The notes under the pieces are model-generated. The model was not told where the DNA came from and did no database searches. It saw only the letters and a list, made by a program, of their open reading frames with translations. This document shows positions 1-64,000 of a stretch of DNA of 64,000 nucleotides, piece by piece (positions within the stretch are counted from its first letter, which is position 1; every line of letters begins with the position of its first letter). The stretch comes from Deinococcales bacterium (GTDB lineage Bacteria > Deinococcota > Deinococci > Deinococcales > JAAFIG01): positions 47,908 through 111,907 of the forward strand of contig JAAFIG010000014.1 in the NCBI GenBank assembly GCA_013298595.1, written 5' to 3'. The translations under genes and the position numbers were made by a program.

Positions 1-1
1 G

Positions 2-241
2 CAAAATGCTGAAAGCCTTGGTTTAACTGGACTCGAGACATTCGATTTCGTCATTGGTGACGACCTCAAACCACGCCAAGACATCACTGCTCGAGTTACC
101 AGCCCCGATGGTAGCACTCGAGAAATTACGCTCTGGTGCCGCATTGACACACCAGTCGAAATTGATTATTACCGCAATGGTGGCATCTTGCAATTTGTAC
201 TACGGCAACTGGCAAGGGAAAGTATGGCAGTAAAAGCGTAA
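2..241 (+). CDS. acnA: Aconitate hydratase A, C-terminal end (partial)
   Basis: Only the last 79 codons are present; the gene begins outside the window. The reading frame starting at base 2 contains the aconitase swivel-domain ending: GDDLKPRQDIT, then WCRIDTPVEIDYYRNGGIL and QFVLRQL. The RIDTPVE-YYRNGGIL stretch is the hallmark of the AcnA/IRP family C-terminus, where its Arg helps bind substrate. The enzyme interconverts citrate and isocitrate in the TCA cycle using a 4Fe-4S cluster whose ligands lie upstream of this fragment. It is followed 12 bp later by a strong hairpin terminator, so it is the last gene of its transcript. Confidence 0.93.
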   Translation, partial: QNAESLGLTGLETFDFVIGDDLKPRQDITARVTSPDGSTREITLWCRIDTPVEIDYYRNGGILQFVLRQLARESMAVKA

Positions 242-253
242 GCATCTATTTCT

Positions 254-283
254 ATAAGAGGCGCAACTTAGTGCGCCTCTTAT
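254..283 (+). terminator. Intrinsic terminator after acnA
   Basis: A perfect 12-bp inverted repeat (ATAAGAGGCGCA / TGCGCCTCTTAT) with a 6-nt loop is followed by TTGTTTG. It sits 12 bp after the aconitase stop and before the next start. Confidence 0.88.
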
Positions 284-313
284 TTGTTTGGTACAGAGTG
301 TAAAATCATTGAC

Positions 314-859
314 ATGGCACAAGTGATCTTTTTGAATGGTGCTTCCAGTTCAGGCAAAACAACGCTGACAAAAGCATTACAATCGCACCTCGAGAAGCCT
401 TATTTGCATTTTTCAGAGGATACATTCTTTTCGATGCTACCCGAAAAACCTTTGTCTCAAGATGAATTCATGACATATGGATTACGCGTCTATGAAGGTT
501 TTGCTCGAGCAGCAAAGGTAATGGTTGAATGCCAAAATAACTTAATTGTAGATACGGTGGCATGGCATCCTGAAAGCATGACGGGTTTTGTCCGTGCATT
601 CGCGGGAATAAAAGTGCTGGCAGTTGGAGTGCATTGCGATCTCGAGATCTTAGAGATACGCGAACAGCAACGAGGCAACCGCACTGCGGGATTGGCAAAA
701 AAGCAATTTGACCAAGTTCATGCCCAAGCACTTTATGACATTGAAATTGATACCTCCAAAATGAGTATTAAGCAGTGCGTAGAACTGATTTTGCAAGCCT
801 TTGAGCACCAAAAACCCAATCATGCGTTTGCCATAATGTACAAGCAACTTAAAAGCTGA
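314..859 (+). CDS. Chloramphenicol phosphotransferase-like small-molecule kinase
   Basis: The 181-aa protein begins MAQVIFLNGASSSGKTTL, a P-loop (GASSSGKT) right at the N-terminus. The layout, with DTVAWHP and a late RGNRTAG Arg segment, matches the chloramphenicol phosphotransferase-like family (CPT; Pfam Chloramphen_phosph). The founding member phosphorylates chloramphenicol in its producer. Most homologues elsewhere have no known substrate, so a resistance role should not be assumed. The ATG at 314 is preferred over an upstream TTG at 284, because TAAAAT at 301-306 lies 7 nt before it and there is no SD, which fits a leaderless start. It converges with the gene ending at 871. Confidence 0.72.
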   Translation: MAQVIFLNGASSSGKTTLTKALQSHLEKPYLHFSEDTFFSMLPEKPLSQDEFMTYGLRVYEGFARAAKVMVECQNNLIVDTVAWHPESMTGFVRAFAGIKVLAVGVHCDLEILEIREQQRGNRTAGLAKKQFDQVHAQALYDIEIDTSKMSIKQCVELILQAFEHQKPNHAFAIMYKQLKS

Positions 860-870
860 AGTTTGTTGCG

Positions 871-61983: not shown

Positions 61984-62703
61984 TCAAGAAAAAAAGTGAG
62001 ACTCGAGTAAAGCATTGACTATTTTGGGTTGCTCAAGATTAACCATATGCCCAGCTGCTGCTATCACTTCAAGGTTTGATGCCATAATCCCTTGGTGTAA
62101 ATACCGTGCCACATTTTGGAAATACGCTGTGTCTCGCTGACCAACCATAATTAAGGTCTTAGCCCTGACCTGATCTAGTTGCTTTGAGACATCTGCTATA
62201 GCTGCTGATGGGCTAATACCTTGTATCCAATGCCAGCCTGAATAATCATTCAACCATACTTGCAACTGCTTTATAAGCTCAGGATTTTCTCGAGCTGCTG
62301 CAAAAAGCGGTAAGCCCAACCAAGTTTGTTTAGCTACCTCGAGTCCATTTTTTTCAAAAGCATTTTGTACAGCTGTACCCGCTTCAATTTGAGCAATATC
62401 AGGCATAAAGCCTTTAAGGCTTGAATCGAGTAGCGCCAGGGTCTGAATTTTTTCTGGATAACGAATTGCAAACTCGAGTGCGATATTACCACCAAGGCTT
62501 AACCCAACCAAATGAATTTTAGGTTGTCCTTCGAGTTCTTGTAACACATCATCGGTAAAAGAAAATTCGCCCTTGGGCGGATTGACCCGACCATAGCCGC
62601 GCAAATTTGGAGCATAACTGGACTTAAAAAACTCGAGTTGTGGTTGCCACATCCGCTGGTCGAGCGTATGACCGTGTAGGAAAACAATTGGGTAACTGGA
62701 CAT
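61984..62703 (-). CDS. Alpha/beta hydrolase
   Basis: The 239-aa protein has the nucleophile elbow GLSLGGN (Ser about residue 90), IVFLHGHTLDQRMWQPQL near the N-terminus as the oxyanion HG motif, and a C-terminal GHMVNLEQP that holds the catalytic His. The acid is likely the Asp in VGQRDTAYF. The fold is certain but the substrate is not. TACATT (62711-62716) lies 7 nt before the ATG. Confidence 0.9.
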   Translation of the reverse strand: MSSYPIVFLHGHTLDQRMWQPQLEFFKSSYAPNLRGYGRVNPPKGEFSFTDDVLQELEGQPKIHLVGLSLGGNIALEFAIRYPEKIQTLALLDSSLKGFMPDIAQIEAGTAVQNAFEKNGLEVAKQTWLGLPLFAAARENPELIKQLQVWLNDYSGWHWIQGISPSAAIADVSKQLDQVRAKTLIMVGQRDTAYFQNVARYLHQGIMASNLEVIAAAGHMVNLEQPKIVNALLESHFFS

Positions 62704-62744
62704 TGTTGAAAATGTAACACAGATAGTACGTAGCTACAGCCCAC

Positions 62745-62774
62745 TTGACAGCACCAGTCTCATCGTAGCAGAAT
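62745..62774 (+). promoter_or_regulatory. Promoter of the cupin gene
   Basis: TTGACA (62745-62750), 18-bp spacer and CAGAAT (62769-62774). The segment AGCCCACTTGACAGC around the -35 box is identical to that of the promoter of the TTC38-like gene (about 27850-27864). Confidence 0.6.
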
Positions 62775-62837
62775 CTTGTGCATACCTATGCAATAAAATT
62801 CTTCTCGAGCCACTGCGCTCGGTCTGGATGTCGTAAA

Positions 62838-63539
62838 ATGGCAAAAAAAGCAGTTTTACAGCCTAAAACCCTTGGCTCATACCGAATTGAAAATGCACAA
62901 GTCGAAGCCCGCATTGTGCGCTTTGATCAGCTTGTACAAAACGGTATTCCTTTAATGTTTATTGATTCAAGCTTACCAGGTCATCAGCGTATGAATTATG
63001 CAGTGATTGGCGACACTGCTTCGGAAAATTCGGATTTTGAAGCTGCCATTACTGCGCCGCACAAATTTCAGATTGGAATGCTTTGTTGCCCACCAAATTC
63101 TGGACCTGCTTATCATAGTCACGATTATTGCGAAATGTTTTTTGTGATGTCTGGACGCTGGCGTTTTTACTGGGGCAACGACCCCGAAGGTATACCCGAA
63201 GGCGAAGCGATTCTCGAGCCGTGGGATAGCATTAGTTTACCAATGCACTTGTGGCGTGGTTTTGAAAACATTTCCGATACACCAGCCTGGTGTTTTGCAG
63301 TACTAGACCCGCATGACCAATTTAGAAGCAAAGACCCATATTGGTCTGAACGTATTGTTGAACAAGCCGCTAAGCTGGGTTTTAAAGCCGATGCAAGCGG
63401 TAGAATGATCAAACCAAAAGATTACGCAGCCCGCAAAGCCAAATTGGCAGCAAAGCTCGAGAAAGCCGTGAAGAAAAGCCTAAAGATGCGTCCTAAAGCT
63501 AAGACCCTAAAAGCTCGAGTTAGCAAAAAGAAAAAATAA
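62838..63539 (+). CDS. Cupin-domain protein with Lys-rich tail
   Basis: The 233-aa protein has a cupin core: CPPNSGPAYHSHDYCEMFFVMSGRWRFYWG (metal-ligand pattern HxH...E) and ISLPMHLWRGFENISDTPAW. The N-terminal part (about 60 aa) is unknown, and the C-terminus is a basic tail (KAKLAAKLEKAVKKSL...KKKK). The ATG at 62838 begins a typical N-terminus; the longer in-frame ORF from 62778 starts with Cys/His-rich non-coding-looking sequence. No enzymatic class can be assigned. Confidence 0.72.
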   Translation: MAKKAVLQPKTLGSYRIENAQVEARIVRFDQLVQNGIPLMFIDSSLPGHQRMNYAVIGDTASENSDFEAAITAPHKFQIGMLCCPPNSGPAYHSHDYCEMFFVMSGRWRFYWGNDPEGIPEGEAILEPWDSISLPMHLWRGFENISDTPAWCFAVLDPHDQFRSKDPYWSERIVEQAAKLGFKADASGRMIKPKDYAARKAKLAAKLEKAVKKSLKMRPKAKTLKARVSKKKK

Positions 63540-63594
63540 TTAGTATGTCCTCGTCAATTCATCCAACGCTTCCACACTTAGCTGAACCTTAACC

Positions 63595-64000
63595 ATGATG
63601 ACCAATCCAATTCAGACTTTATGGAGTAAAGACCTTGCAGCCACAGCGGGTTGGTTGCATTTTGGGCATTCATTTGTGGCTGAGTTAATCTCAGCTCAAG
63701 GTTTTGATGCAGTAGTAATTGACCATCAGCATGCTCCATATGGCATAGATACAGCTTTAAGTTTGGTTAGCGCGGTCTCGAGGAGTGCAGCAACACCTTT
63801 TGTACGGGTTTCTTGGAACGACCCAAGTGAAATCATGAAATTCTTGGACACTGGGGCGCTTGGCATTATTTGTCCGATGGTGAATACTGCACTCGAGGCA
63901 CAAAATTTTGTGGCAGCTTGTCGTTATCCACCGCAGGGTTTTCGCAGTTTTGGTCCAACTCGAGCAGCACTGGTGTACGGTGCTGATTACGGGCAACATG
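63595..64000 (+). CDS. HpcH/HpaI aldolase family protein, partial
   Basis: The gene runs off the right edge. The visible 135 codons give MTNPIQTLWSKDLAATAGWLHFGHSFVAELISAQGFDAVVIDHQHAP, then FVRVSWNDPSEIMKFLDTGALGIICPMVNTALEAQNF and YPPQGFRSFGPTRA. The DxxHxxP and GIICPMV motifs mark the HpcH/HpaI class II aldolase family (for example 2-keto-3-deoxy-L-rhamnonate aldolase). Catalytic residues beyond the edge are unseen. Two adjacent ATG codons (63595 and 63598) could start it. Confidence 0.85.
   Translation, partial: MMTNPIQTLWSKDLAATAGWLHFGHSFVAELISAQGFDAVVIDHQHAPYGIDTALSLVSAVSRSAATPFVRVSWNDPSEIMKFLDTGALGIICPMVNTALEAQNFVAACRYPPQGFRSFGPTRAALVYGADYGQH

Follow-up and report, generated by a model that had tools for sequence, protein, structure and literature searches.

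The closest described counterparts of the word studied here are the highly iterated palindromes (HIPs) of cyanobacteria, which in the available text of Elhai 2015 (PMC4390886) comprise HIP1, GCGATCGC, and the alternates GGGATCCC, TCGATCGA, GGCGCC, rCCGGy and GCsGC; the same text cites a survey of HIP1 among prokaryotes. Since its description in 1995 HIP1 has lacked an explanation, and the hypotheses put forward for it are bound up with cyanobacterial biology and GATC/CGATCG methyltransferases. A 2018 paper reportedly argued for selection on HIP1. Here we analyze a six-base palindrome, CTCGAG, in a 64,000-bp stretch of a Deinococcales genome (positions 47,908 to 111,907 of contig JAAFIG010000014.1; hereafter the window, meaning this whole stretch), whose host shares its order with Allomeiothermus silvanus in the phylum Deinococcota and is thus not a cyanobacterium. 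Our literature search, which covered listings and lay mostly outside subscription papers, found no published CTCGAG excess in Deinococcota and no HIP beyond cyanobacteria. We tentatively propose that CTCGAG is kept abundant by selection acting through a protein that recognizes just this six-base word and spares or licenses the DNA bearing it.

Abundance and exactness of CTCGAG

The genome of the window (G000; 4,582,226 bp in 68 contigs) was sampled as 864 kb, consisting of the window and forty 20 kb stretches, with some counts taken from the first 464 kb only; genes were called as the longest non-overlapping open reading frames (ORFs), without a trained gene finder. The window holds 413 copies of CTCGAG where base composition predicts 12.3, from a first site at 32 to a last at 63,959, and local density ranges from 2 to 16 per kb.

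1..64000, unstranded (palindromic, so present on both strands): CTCGAG array, 413 sites, one per 155 bp, by counting
27002..27951, unstranded: widest interval between successive sites, 949 bp, by counting

Genome-wide there are 27,159 copies, one per 169 bp (~5,900 per Mb), against 15 of the reversed word GAGCTC, and every one of the 216 4-kb stretches in the sample contains the word, with a minimum of 5. The initial annotation had put the excess at 20 times random or more; it is larger than that and extends beyond the window. No other hexamer of this genome comes near CTCGAG in over-representation: among palindromic hexamers in 464 kb CTCGAG stands at 31.4 times expectation, and the runner-up, TTGCAA, at 2.5. 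Low-order Markov models leave the excess unexplained, with observed/expected ratios of 29.8, 57.6 and 14.5 at orders 0, 1 and 2 (864 kb). The ratios of 3.2 and 1.19 at orders 3 and 4 (1.16 at order 4 within the window) carry no information, since the inner 4- and 5-mers occur for the most part within CTCGAG itself; 2,846 of the 4,148 copies of TCGA in 464 kb sit inside it.

The excess belongs to the exact word. Its one-base neighbours reach at most 1.64 times expectation in 464 kb, against 31 times for CTCGAG, with transition neighbours at 0.9-1.6 and transversion neighbours at 0.1-0.7. Around 392 intergenic sites (orientations pooled), each of the 12 positions on either side carries at most 0.015 bits, and there is no enrichment for G before or C after the word. 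A deamination hot spot at 5-methylcytosine (m5C) was rejected as a source, C-to-T and T-to-C neighbours being about equally represented in intergenic DNA (1.5-1.9).

Coding and intergenic DNA are about equally rich, at one site per 161 bp and one per 180 bp, respectively; with ORFs down to 60 amino acids masked, the intergenic figure is one per 175 bp, 35 times expectation. Within genes, the registers CTC-GAG, xCT-CGA-Gxx and xxC-TCG-AGx hold 1,513, 617 and 451 sites, so that the tolerance in all three frames first noticed in a few genes is borne out. With contig C12 left out, the word is used in 68% of compatible Leu-Glu contexts, 64% of [SPTA]-Arg-[DEAGV] and 38% of x-Ser-[RS]. It writes 66-69% of Leu-Glu pairs, where codon use outside Leu-Glu predicts 1.5%. 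Leu-Glu itself is over-represented 2.3-2.4-fold, its 2.38 being the highest value among dipeptides counted more than 200 times, and Glu-Leu, Leu-Asp, Leu-Lys and Leu-Gln lie at 0.83-0.99. At more than twice its expected frequency, this pair shows that the motif alters proteins, in agreement with the earlier claim that it shapes their composition. These figures also decide whether the word could be a by-product of codon or peptide preference for CTC, GAG or Leu-Glu: CTC and GAG are indeed common in GC-rich genomes of the order, and in G049 codon use alone predicts 0.39 of Leu-Glu, but with 1.5% predicted against 66% observed, equally rich intergenic DNA and the other frames filled, that explanation is refuted for G000 and retains next to no probability.

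Three genes of the window serve as examples.

43885..46344, minus strand: HrpB-type helicase, 819 amino acids, 23 sites (15 CTC-GAG, 7 xCT-CGA-G, 1 xxC-TCG-AG) and 32 Leu-Glu pairs
3092..6502, minus strand: protein kinase / AAA / TPR protein, 1136 amino acids, 20 sites (10, 8 and 2 per frame)
8356..9702, plus strand: DnaB helicase, an example of a conserved gene, still with 7 sites (3, 2 and 2 per frame)

Among the 80 of 117 relatives kept from a HrpB scan of named genomes, no title names Deinococcota. The sole Rfam match in the window is a tRNA gene at 13236-13322 on the plus strand.

Two regions of the genome are poor in the word. The sparsest 4-kb stretch, with 5 sites (L011:8041-12184 on G000:C3), encodes a Prok-E2 / ThiF / JAB protein flanked by two proteins without a Pfam match, and is probably a recently acquired defence operon. 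The 271 kb contig G000:C12 (L019, L229-L234) has a CTCGAG density and a Leu-Glu share (0.38-0.64) below those of most other sampled contigs; it is possibly a secondary replicon or a newer island.

Spacing and conservation of sites

Neighbouring sites repel one another, a feature that, like the scarcity of other palindromes described below, lies beyond what the initial annotation had reported. In G000, the frequencies of pairs 7-11, 12-19, 20-29 and 30-39 bp apart, relative to the 100-200 bp level, are 0.22, 0.49, 0.69 and 0.78. The repulsion recurs, at shorter range, in the congener G001 (0.55, 0.70, 0.84 and 1.07 in the same bins) and in G002 and G003 combined (0.21, 0.62, 1.03 and 0.92). GC-matched hexamer controls in G000 do not repel (inverted repeats 0.95-1.43, direct repeats 1.03-1.28), and in G001 such inverted repeats stand at 0.84 at 7-11 bp and 0.99-1.10 beyond. 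Instability of hairpins or direct repeats was rejected as the cause on these grounds, the dip to 0.84 in G001 being smaller than the CTCGAG effect of 0.55. When the CTCGAG state was permuted gene by gene over the Leu-Glu pairs (612 genes of G000), none of 200 runs reached the observed scarcity in any of the four bins to 40 bp; at 41-60 and 61-100 bp the observed value was matched or undercut in 30 and 8 of 200. Part of the repulsion at 6-11 bp may reflect avoidance of GAGCTC, which abutting copies would create. Over longer distances the sites are under-dispersed, with a variance/mean of 0.77-0.81 in 100-400 bp windows against 0.97-1.11 for 30 abundant hexamers; 1,600 bp windows are over-dispersed (1.21) because of regional differences.

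Such spacing would suit a site bound by an abundant nucleoid protein that coats the chromosome, with its footprint setting the distance: a coating dimer fits both repulsion within ~40 bp and the one site per 105-177 bp found in six genomes. Coating proteins usually accept degenerate sites with flank preferences, however, whereas CTCGAG is exact and its flanks are flat, and there is no obvious gain in one for the phage that carries the word (see below). We regard this explanation as unlikely.

G000 and G001 were then compared through 40 ortholog pairs, all at 60% amino-acid identity or more (mean 0.78) and with a fourfold identity of 0.39. At residue-conserved places G001 keeps CTCGAG in 81/100, 20/35 and 22/25 cases in the three frames, against 28% identity for other hexamers, and over all aligned places it keeps 132 of 213 G000 sites. 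The initial annotation had pointed to close relatives for such a comparison, and the congener indeed keeps most sites although synonymous sites are near-random. Gain must also be fast, since G001 often has CTCGAG where G000 does not: at compatible conserved places without the word in G000, it is present in 24/42, 5/16 and 9/26 cases. The site-specific excess of retention reaches significance in frame 0 (Fisher 0.006) and frame 2 (0.0001), and not in frame 1 (0.13).

Sites present in only one of the two species reveal how the word comes and goes. The other species is one base off in 21% of cases, at about the first percentile of 133 control hexamers (each with at least 40 one-sided cases), and three or more bases off in 56%, above all 133; retention of CTCGAG is 0.42, against a control maximum of 0.33. 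Where residues are conserved, states three or more bases away make up 29%, at the 95th percentile of 148 controls. Intermediates seem to be passed quickly, which we read as CTCGAG acting as an attractor. Fourfold identity is flat over 1-240 bp from a site (0.35-0.43, highest beyond 240 bp), so that, as far as near saturation allows, no repair patch or recombination tract is visible; amino-acid identity is slightly reduced next to sites, 0.73 at 1-6 bp from sites, against 0.79-0.80 at 16-120 bp.

These observations bear on a DNA uptake signal, by which competent cells would favour CTCGAG-bearing DNA and biased transformation would pile the word up. Thermus, whose uptake is not known to be sequence-specific, lacks the trait, as this idea would have it, but known uptake words are generally longer than CTCGAG. 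The accessible portion of PMC1939737 reports even spacing and a shortage of single mismatches for uptake sequences, and CTCGAG is likewise evenly spaced with few one-mismatch states between species; in the same source the known words are non-palindromic. A density of 5,900 per Mb, flanks without a hitchhiking shadow, one-mismatch words that are not scarce genome-wide and a phage that carries the word all count against uptake. The initial annotation had also suggested an uptake signal; we consider the explanation improbable.

Relatives, plasmids, phages and other palindromes

To describe the wider distribution we use f1 for the window's family (four genomes) and g11 for a genus with G012 and G016; G061 is Allomeiothermus silvanus DSM 9946 (20 kb of the second G061 contig, 100% identical), and we infer that g13 is Meiothermus and g7 (G049) Thermus. 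The trait is graded: strongest in f1 and g11, where enrichment is 20-31-fold, moderate in Meiothermus, and absent from sampled Thermus and Deinococcus DNA. In the six f1 and g11 genomes density is one site per 105-177 bp regardless of GC (45-60%). A codon-aware ratio for Leu-Glu is 7-45 in f1, 26 in G012 and 16 in G016 (72 of 76 pairs, a small sample), followed by 18.7 in G104, 4.6 in G005, 4.3 in G008 and 6.5 and 3.2 in two g13 genomes; it is 2.5 in A. silvanus, 2.1 in G110 and 2.0 in G006, and low in G063 (1.6, from 7.8 kb only), G004 (1.0) and G049 (0.7). The ratio is at least 2.0 in 14 of the 17 sampled genomes. The trait is probably old in the order and graded, having been lost or never gained in Thermus and G004.

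Mobile DNA was sampled from the same groups. In 40 kb of plasmid DNA each, CTCGAG writes 58/135 Leu-Glu pairs in Meiothermus taiwanensis (0.16 expected), 4/72 in Deinococcus deserti (0.11 expected) and 28/155 in pTT27 of T. thermophilus (0.42 expected). The Meiothermus phages MMP17 (accession from the available text of PMC7448439) and MMP7 carry 87 and 90 sites in 33 kb, with 60/112 and 62/112 Leu-Glu pairs written as CTCGAG against 0.18 expected, and Leu-Glu at ~1.65-fold. The Thermus phage Riverbug, a relative, has 23 sites in 34 kb and 17/79 Leu-Glu pairs against 0.39 expected; across 13 matched genes the counts are 30 sites in MMP17 and 9 in Riverbug. Other Thermus phages are depleted, namely phiFa with 8/90 pairs (0.18 expected) and P23-45 with 2/109 (0.13 expected), from parts of 40 and 34 kb. 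In this phage comparison, CTCGAG follows the host. Functions limited to chromosomes do not predict a CTCGAG-rich phage, and the segregation or nucleoid-domain markers raised in the initial annotation would leave the phage unexplained and would not call for a density of one site per 160 bp.

Some features of these phages were noted in passing. The 34 kb of P23-45 show avoidance of CTCGAG (2 sites, 0.18 of expectation) and a 6.8-fold excess of AAGCTT. MMP17 has a D12 adenine methyltransferase that overlaps a gene annotated as a very-short-patch-repair endonuclease (L424:26062-27388); in MMP7 the same place holds a DNA adenine methylase that overlaps with a DUF559 gene, and Riverbug has no such annotation. 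Viral contigs with CTCGAG clusters (at least 120 loci, of which 111 of at least 3 kb were counted, 9 shorter ones dropped and 9 inspected) were set aside as GC-rich and without a clear link to the clade.

Many other palindromes go the opposite way in the most enriched genomes. In f1 and G012, between 23 and 32 of the 64 palindromic hexamers stand at less than a tenth of expectation, as do 6 of 8 testable ones in G016 and 13/64 in G068; in the ten further genomes sampled, the count is 0-8 of 8-64. GGCC is present 11 times (0.01 of expectation) in 464 kb of G000 and GAGCTC not at all, and the window has no GAGCTC, no GACGTC, and one each of GGCC, CTTAAG, TTCGAA and CTGCAG. Avoidance like the window's is found in f1 and g11, with differing details, and in neither G008 nor G004; as G008 is enriched in CTCGAG without it, the two traits are separable. 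Four-base avoidance varies among relatives (GGCC is normal in G012 and G016, and GATC stands at 0.04 in G016), which would fit turnover of restriction systems. Mildly over-represented in f1, by about 1.2 to 3.7-fold, are AGCGCT, TTGCAA and AAATTT, and in places CAATTG, GAATTC and TTTAAA.

Candidate causes and known systems

To look for a shared enzyme, 18 genomes were searched with each of five Pfam methyltransferase profiles, PF01555, PF00145, PF07669, PF02086 and PF02384; three of the genomes differ between the first three families and the last two. Loci were obtained for 66 of 94 matches in the first three families, with 20 further stretches added around unlocated matches in enriched genomes, and 92 frames were compared, without a small number of weak matches and those from genomes that are not in the enriched set; the genomes are 58-100% complete. 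Across these 92 frames from the five families, grouping at 40% identity gives no cluster that spans the enriched genomes, and the widest with a G000 member is a C5 enzyme of G000, G001 and G012 that has none in G002 or G003. At 30% identity the C5 enzymes of seven genomes (G000, G001, G002, G003, G008, G012 and G068) chain into one group, which we read as family-level likeness. C5 matches (PF00145) occur in all five strongly enriched genomes of at least 91% completeness and in G008, and no PF00145 match was found in the enriched genomes G104, G005 and G006. A type II methyltransferase family taken from five enriched genomes (A1) was rejected as driver: its 30 matches in 111 genomes, 23 of them above 300 bits, include none in f1 or f2. 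Within g13, the weak-match genomes G015, G025, G037 and G073 have 2.2-2.4 sites per kb and the 14 strong-match genomes 1.4-3.1 (on rounded sizes). With no shared group at 40% identity, and with A1 not tracking density, methylation models are weakened, although different enzymes with the same CTCGAG target, whose specificities are not readable from sequence, may serve different genomes.

A methylation-guided repair drive, which generalizes Elhai's proposal for HIPs, would need no selection: CTCGAG would be marked at once and mismatch repair would template on the marked strand, so that site-creating mutations are kept and destroying ones reversed. It would give a site-by-site attractor and act alike on phage and plasmid DNA, and the C5 enzymes of the strongly enriched genomes and G008, with their chaining at 30%, speak for it. 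So does precedent, HIPs accompanying methyltransferases of matching specificity in the available text of PMC4390886 and CTCGAG-specific orphan methyltransferases being known in Nocardia from that of PMC4752239. The missing group at 40%, the three enriched genomes without a C5 match and the absence of A1 from f1 and f2 argue against it, as do flanking fourfold sites without reduced divergence and transition neighbours that are undepleted (0.9-1.9-fold); Elhai's specific form of the model needs GpC, which CTCGAG does not have. The initial annotation had suggested a methylation-directed cause; we hold the repair drive to be possible but doubtful.

Two nuclease families were considered. Vsr-type repair was rejected as a general cause: the T-for-C neighbours that it would remove are not depleted, and DUF559 (PF04480) was found in 11 of 25 genomes and is absent from the enriched G008, G005, G059, G061, G105, G006 and G110. 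The DUF559 nuclease-like genes (for example G000:C15:44865-45179) are strong matches in the four f1 genomes, G104, G068 and G063, and weak (4) or absent (14) in the other 18. CTCGAG is also the target of XhoI / PaeR7I; the XhoI endonuclease family (PF04555) matched 0 of 18 genomes, with a profile that also matched none of 14 control genomes.

The C5 methyltransferase of G000 (L121:1444-2574 on G000:C15) has no obvious adjoining endonuclease, and its best PADLOC model is an orphan methyltransferase. An orphan mark, whether epigenetic or for replication control, with selection for many marked sites, would be in keeping with this enzyme and its retention in G001 (74%) and G012 (59%), and has a precedent in Nocardia, where CTCGAG clusters near dnaA (PMC4752239, available text). 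The enzyme has no 40% relative in the equally enriched G002 and G003, however, and a regulatory role would not lead the word to occupy 64-68% of the compatible positions of two frames out of three. We consider such a mark very unlikely.

What the observations define is a force that acts on the exact hexamer, in any frame, between genes and on mobile DNA, with an interference range of tens of bp. Selection via a protective or licensing reader is the explanation that we rank first, ahead of repair drive and then of uptake, a coating protein and an orphan methylation mark. The putative reader would recognize exact CTCGAG and spare or license DNA bearing it, so that chromosome, plasmid and phage DNA in such cells would all accumulate the word. 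It might be a DNA-policing factor resembling a restriction-modification or Chi-reading protein, with a footprint of roughly 20-40 bp, and may have been lost by Thermus and G004. The force would be weak selection, of the strength of codon bias, spread over many sites: arithmetic from the Leu-Glu shares gives odds of CTCGAG at Leu-Glu raised ~130-fold in G000, much less for Meiothermus and ~5-fold in MMP17, a size that such selection could reach.

Several points weigh against this proposal. The reader, like any nuclease or modification tied to it, is postulated. Trait strength differs many-fold among relatives, and in small samples of more distant genomes sites are rarely shared (G003 19/61, G002 2/20, G012 2/17, G008 0/6). 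The shortage of intermediates is weaker where residues are conserved: one-base states there make up 37%, a value that lies above the 5th percentile but below the median of the 148 controls. Nor is there a depletion of transition neighbours (0.9-1.9-fold across the 464-kb and intergenic counts). The flank-identity test has limited power, fourfold sites being near saturation. MMP17 and MMP7 are 99.8% identical over 32 kb, so the phage evidence amounts to one independent case, and a temperate phage could acquire the mutation bias of its host too. Finally, a licence might need a minimum density. Beyond 60 bp, three of the six combinations of frame and genome show flat use of compatible positions and the other three an increase with gap size up to 700 bp, and use falls in gaps longer than 700 bp; this does not establish a required minimum, and with so mixed an outcome density homeostasis was dropped as proof of a licence.

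A bolder form of the reader proposal, which we think rather unlikely, is an inverted restriction in which most non-Thermus lineages of the order attack or fail to maintain DNA without dense CTCGAG marks. If true, self DNA, plasmids and phages would gain sites and proteomes bend, where ordinary restriction makes DNA lose sites, and the window's family would run both, with CTCGAG up 20-30-fold and a third to half of six-base palindromes down ten-fold or more. The shortage of many restriction-type palindromes in the most enriched genomes makes these a natural archive of prolonged pressure on DNA words. With hosts that can be cultured (Meiothermus, A. silvanus), a neighbouring negative control in Thermus and matched phages, mutation bias, uptake and selection become directly testable.

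Among words with known readers, Chi (RecBCD / AddAB) is a short word over-represented in self DNA and thought to spare it from nuclease; Chi words are non-palindromic and rare. CTCGAG differs in being palindromic, without strand polarity, and far denser, and its link to a nuclease is hypothetical. Restriction-site avoidance has the opposite sign, many other palindromes being avoided in the most enriched genomes while CTCGAG is up 20-31-fold in f1 and g11. The uptake sequences of Pasteurellaceae and Neisseriaceae are evenly spaced like CTCGAG, but non-palindromic and far rarer (PMC1939737, available text). The Nocardia orphan methyltransferase of Blow et al. 2016 (PMC4752239, in the portion available) targets the same hexamer, but its sites cluster in non-coding DNA near dnaA, whereas CTCGAG here is everywhere.

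Cyanobacterial HIPs come closest. Like them, CTCGAG is an exact palindrome, over-represented genome-wide in coding and non-coding DNA and through one phylum with exceptions, and GGCGCC, a HIP alternate, is a hexamer too. Unlike them, it has neither GpC nor GATC, so that the word for Elhai's GmeC-directed repair model is not matched; no common methyltransferase appears at 40% identity among the 92 frames compared, a phage carries the word, and one-base deviations in intergenic DNA are not concentrated at the outer bases. The HIP1-like label of the initial annotation is a reasonable one for the pattern; the non-cyanobacterial host and the lack of GpC set CTCGAG apart. In density CTCGAG, at ~5,900 per Mb, exceeds the ~500-2,500 per Mb given for HIPs except rCCGGy in the available text of PMC4390886. 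An unrelated, shorter palindrome in a second phylum tells the general features of such words (exact palindrome, site-by-site attraction, all frames) apart from the cyanobacterial ones: CTCGAG is a denser, six-base word of the HIP kind in another phylum, and the cyanobacterial HIP is the closest known kind.

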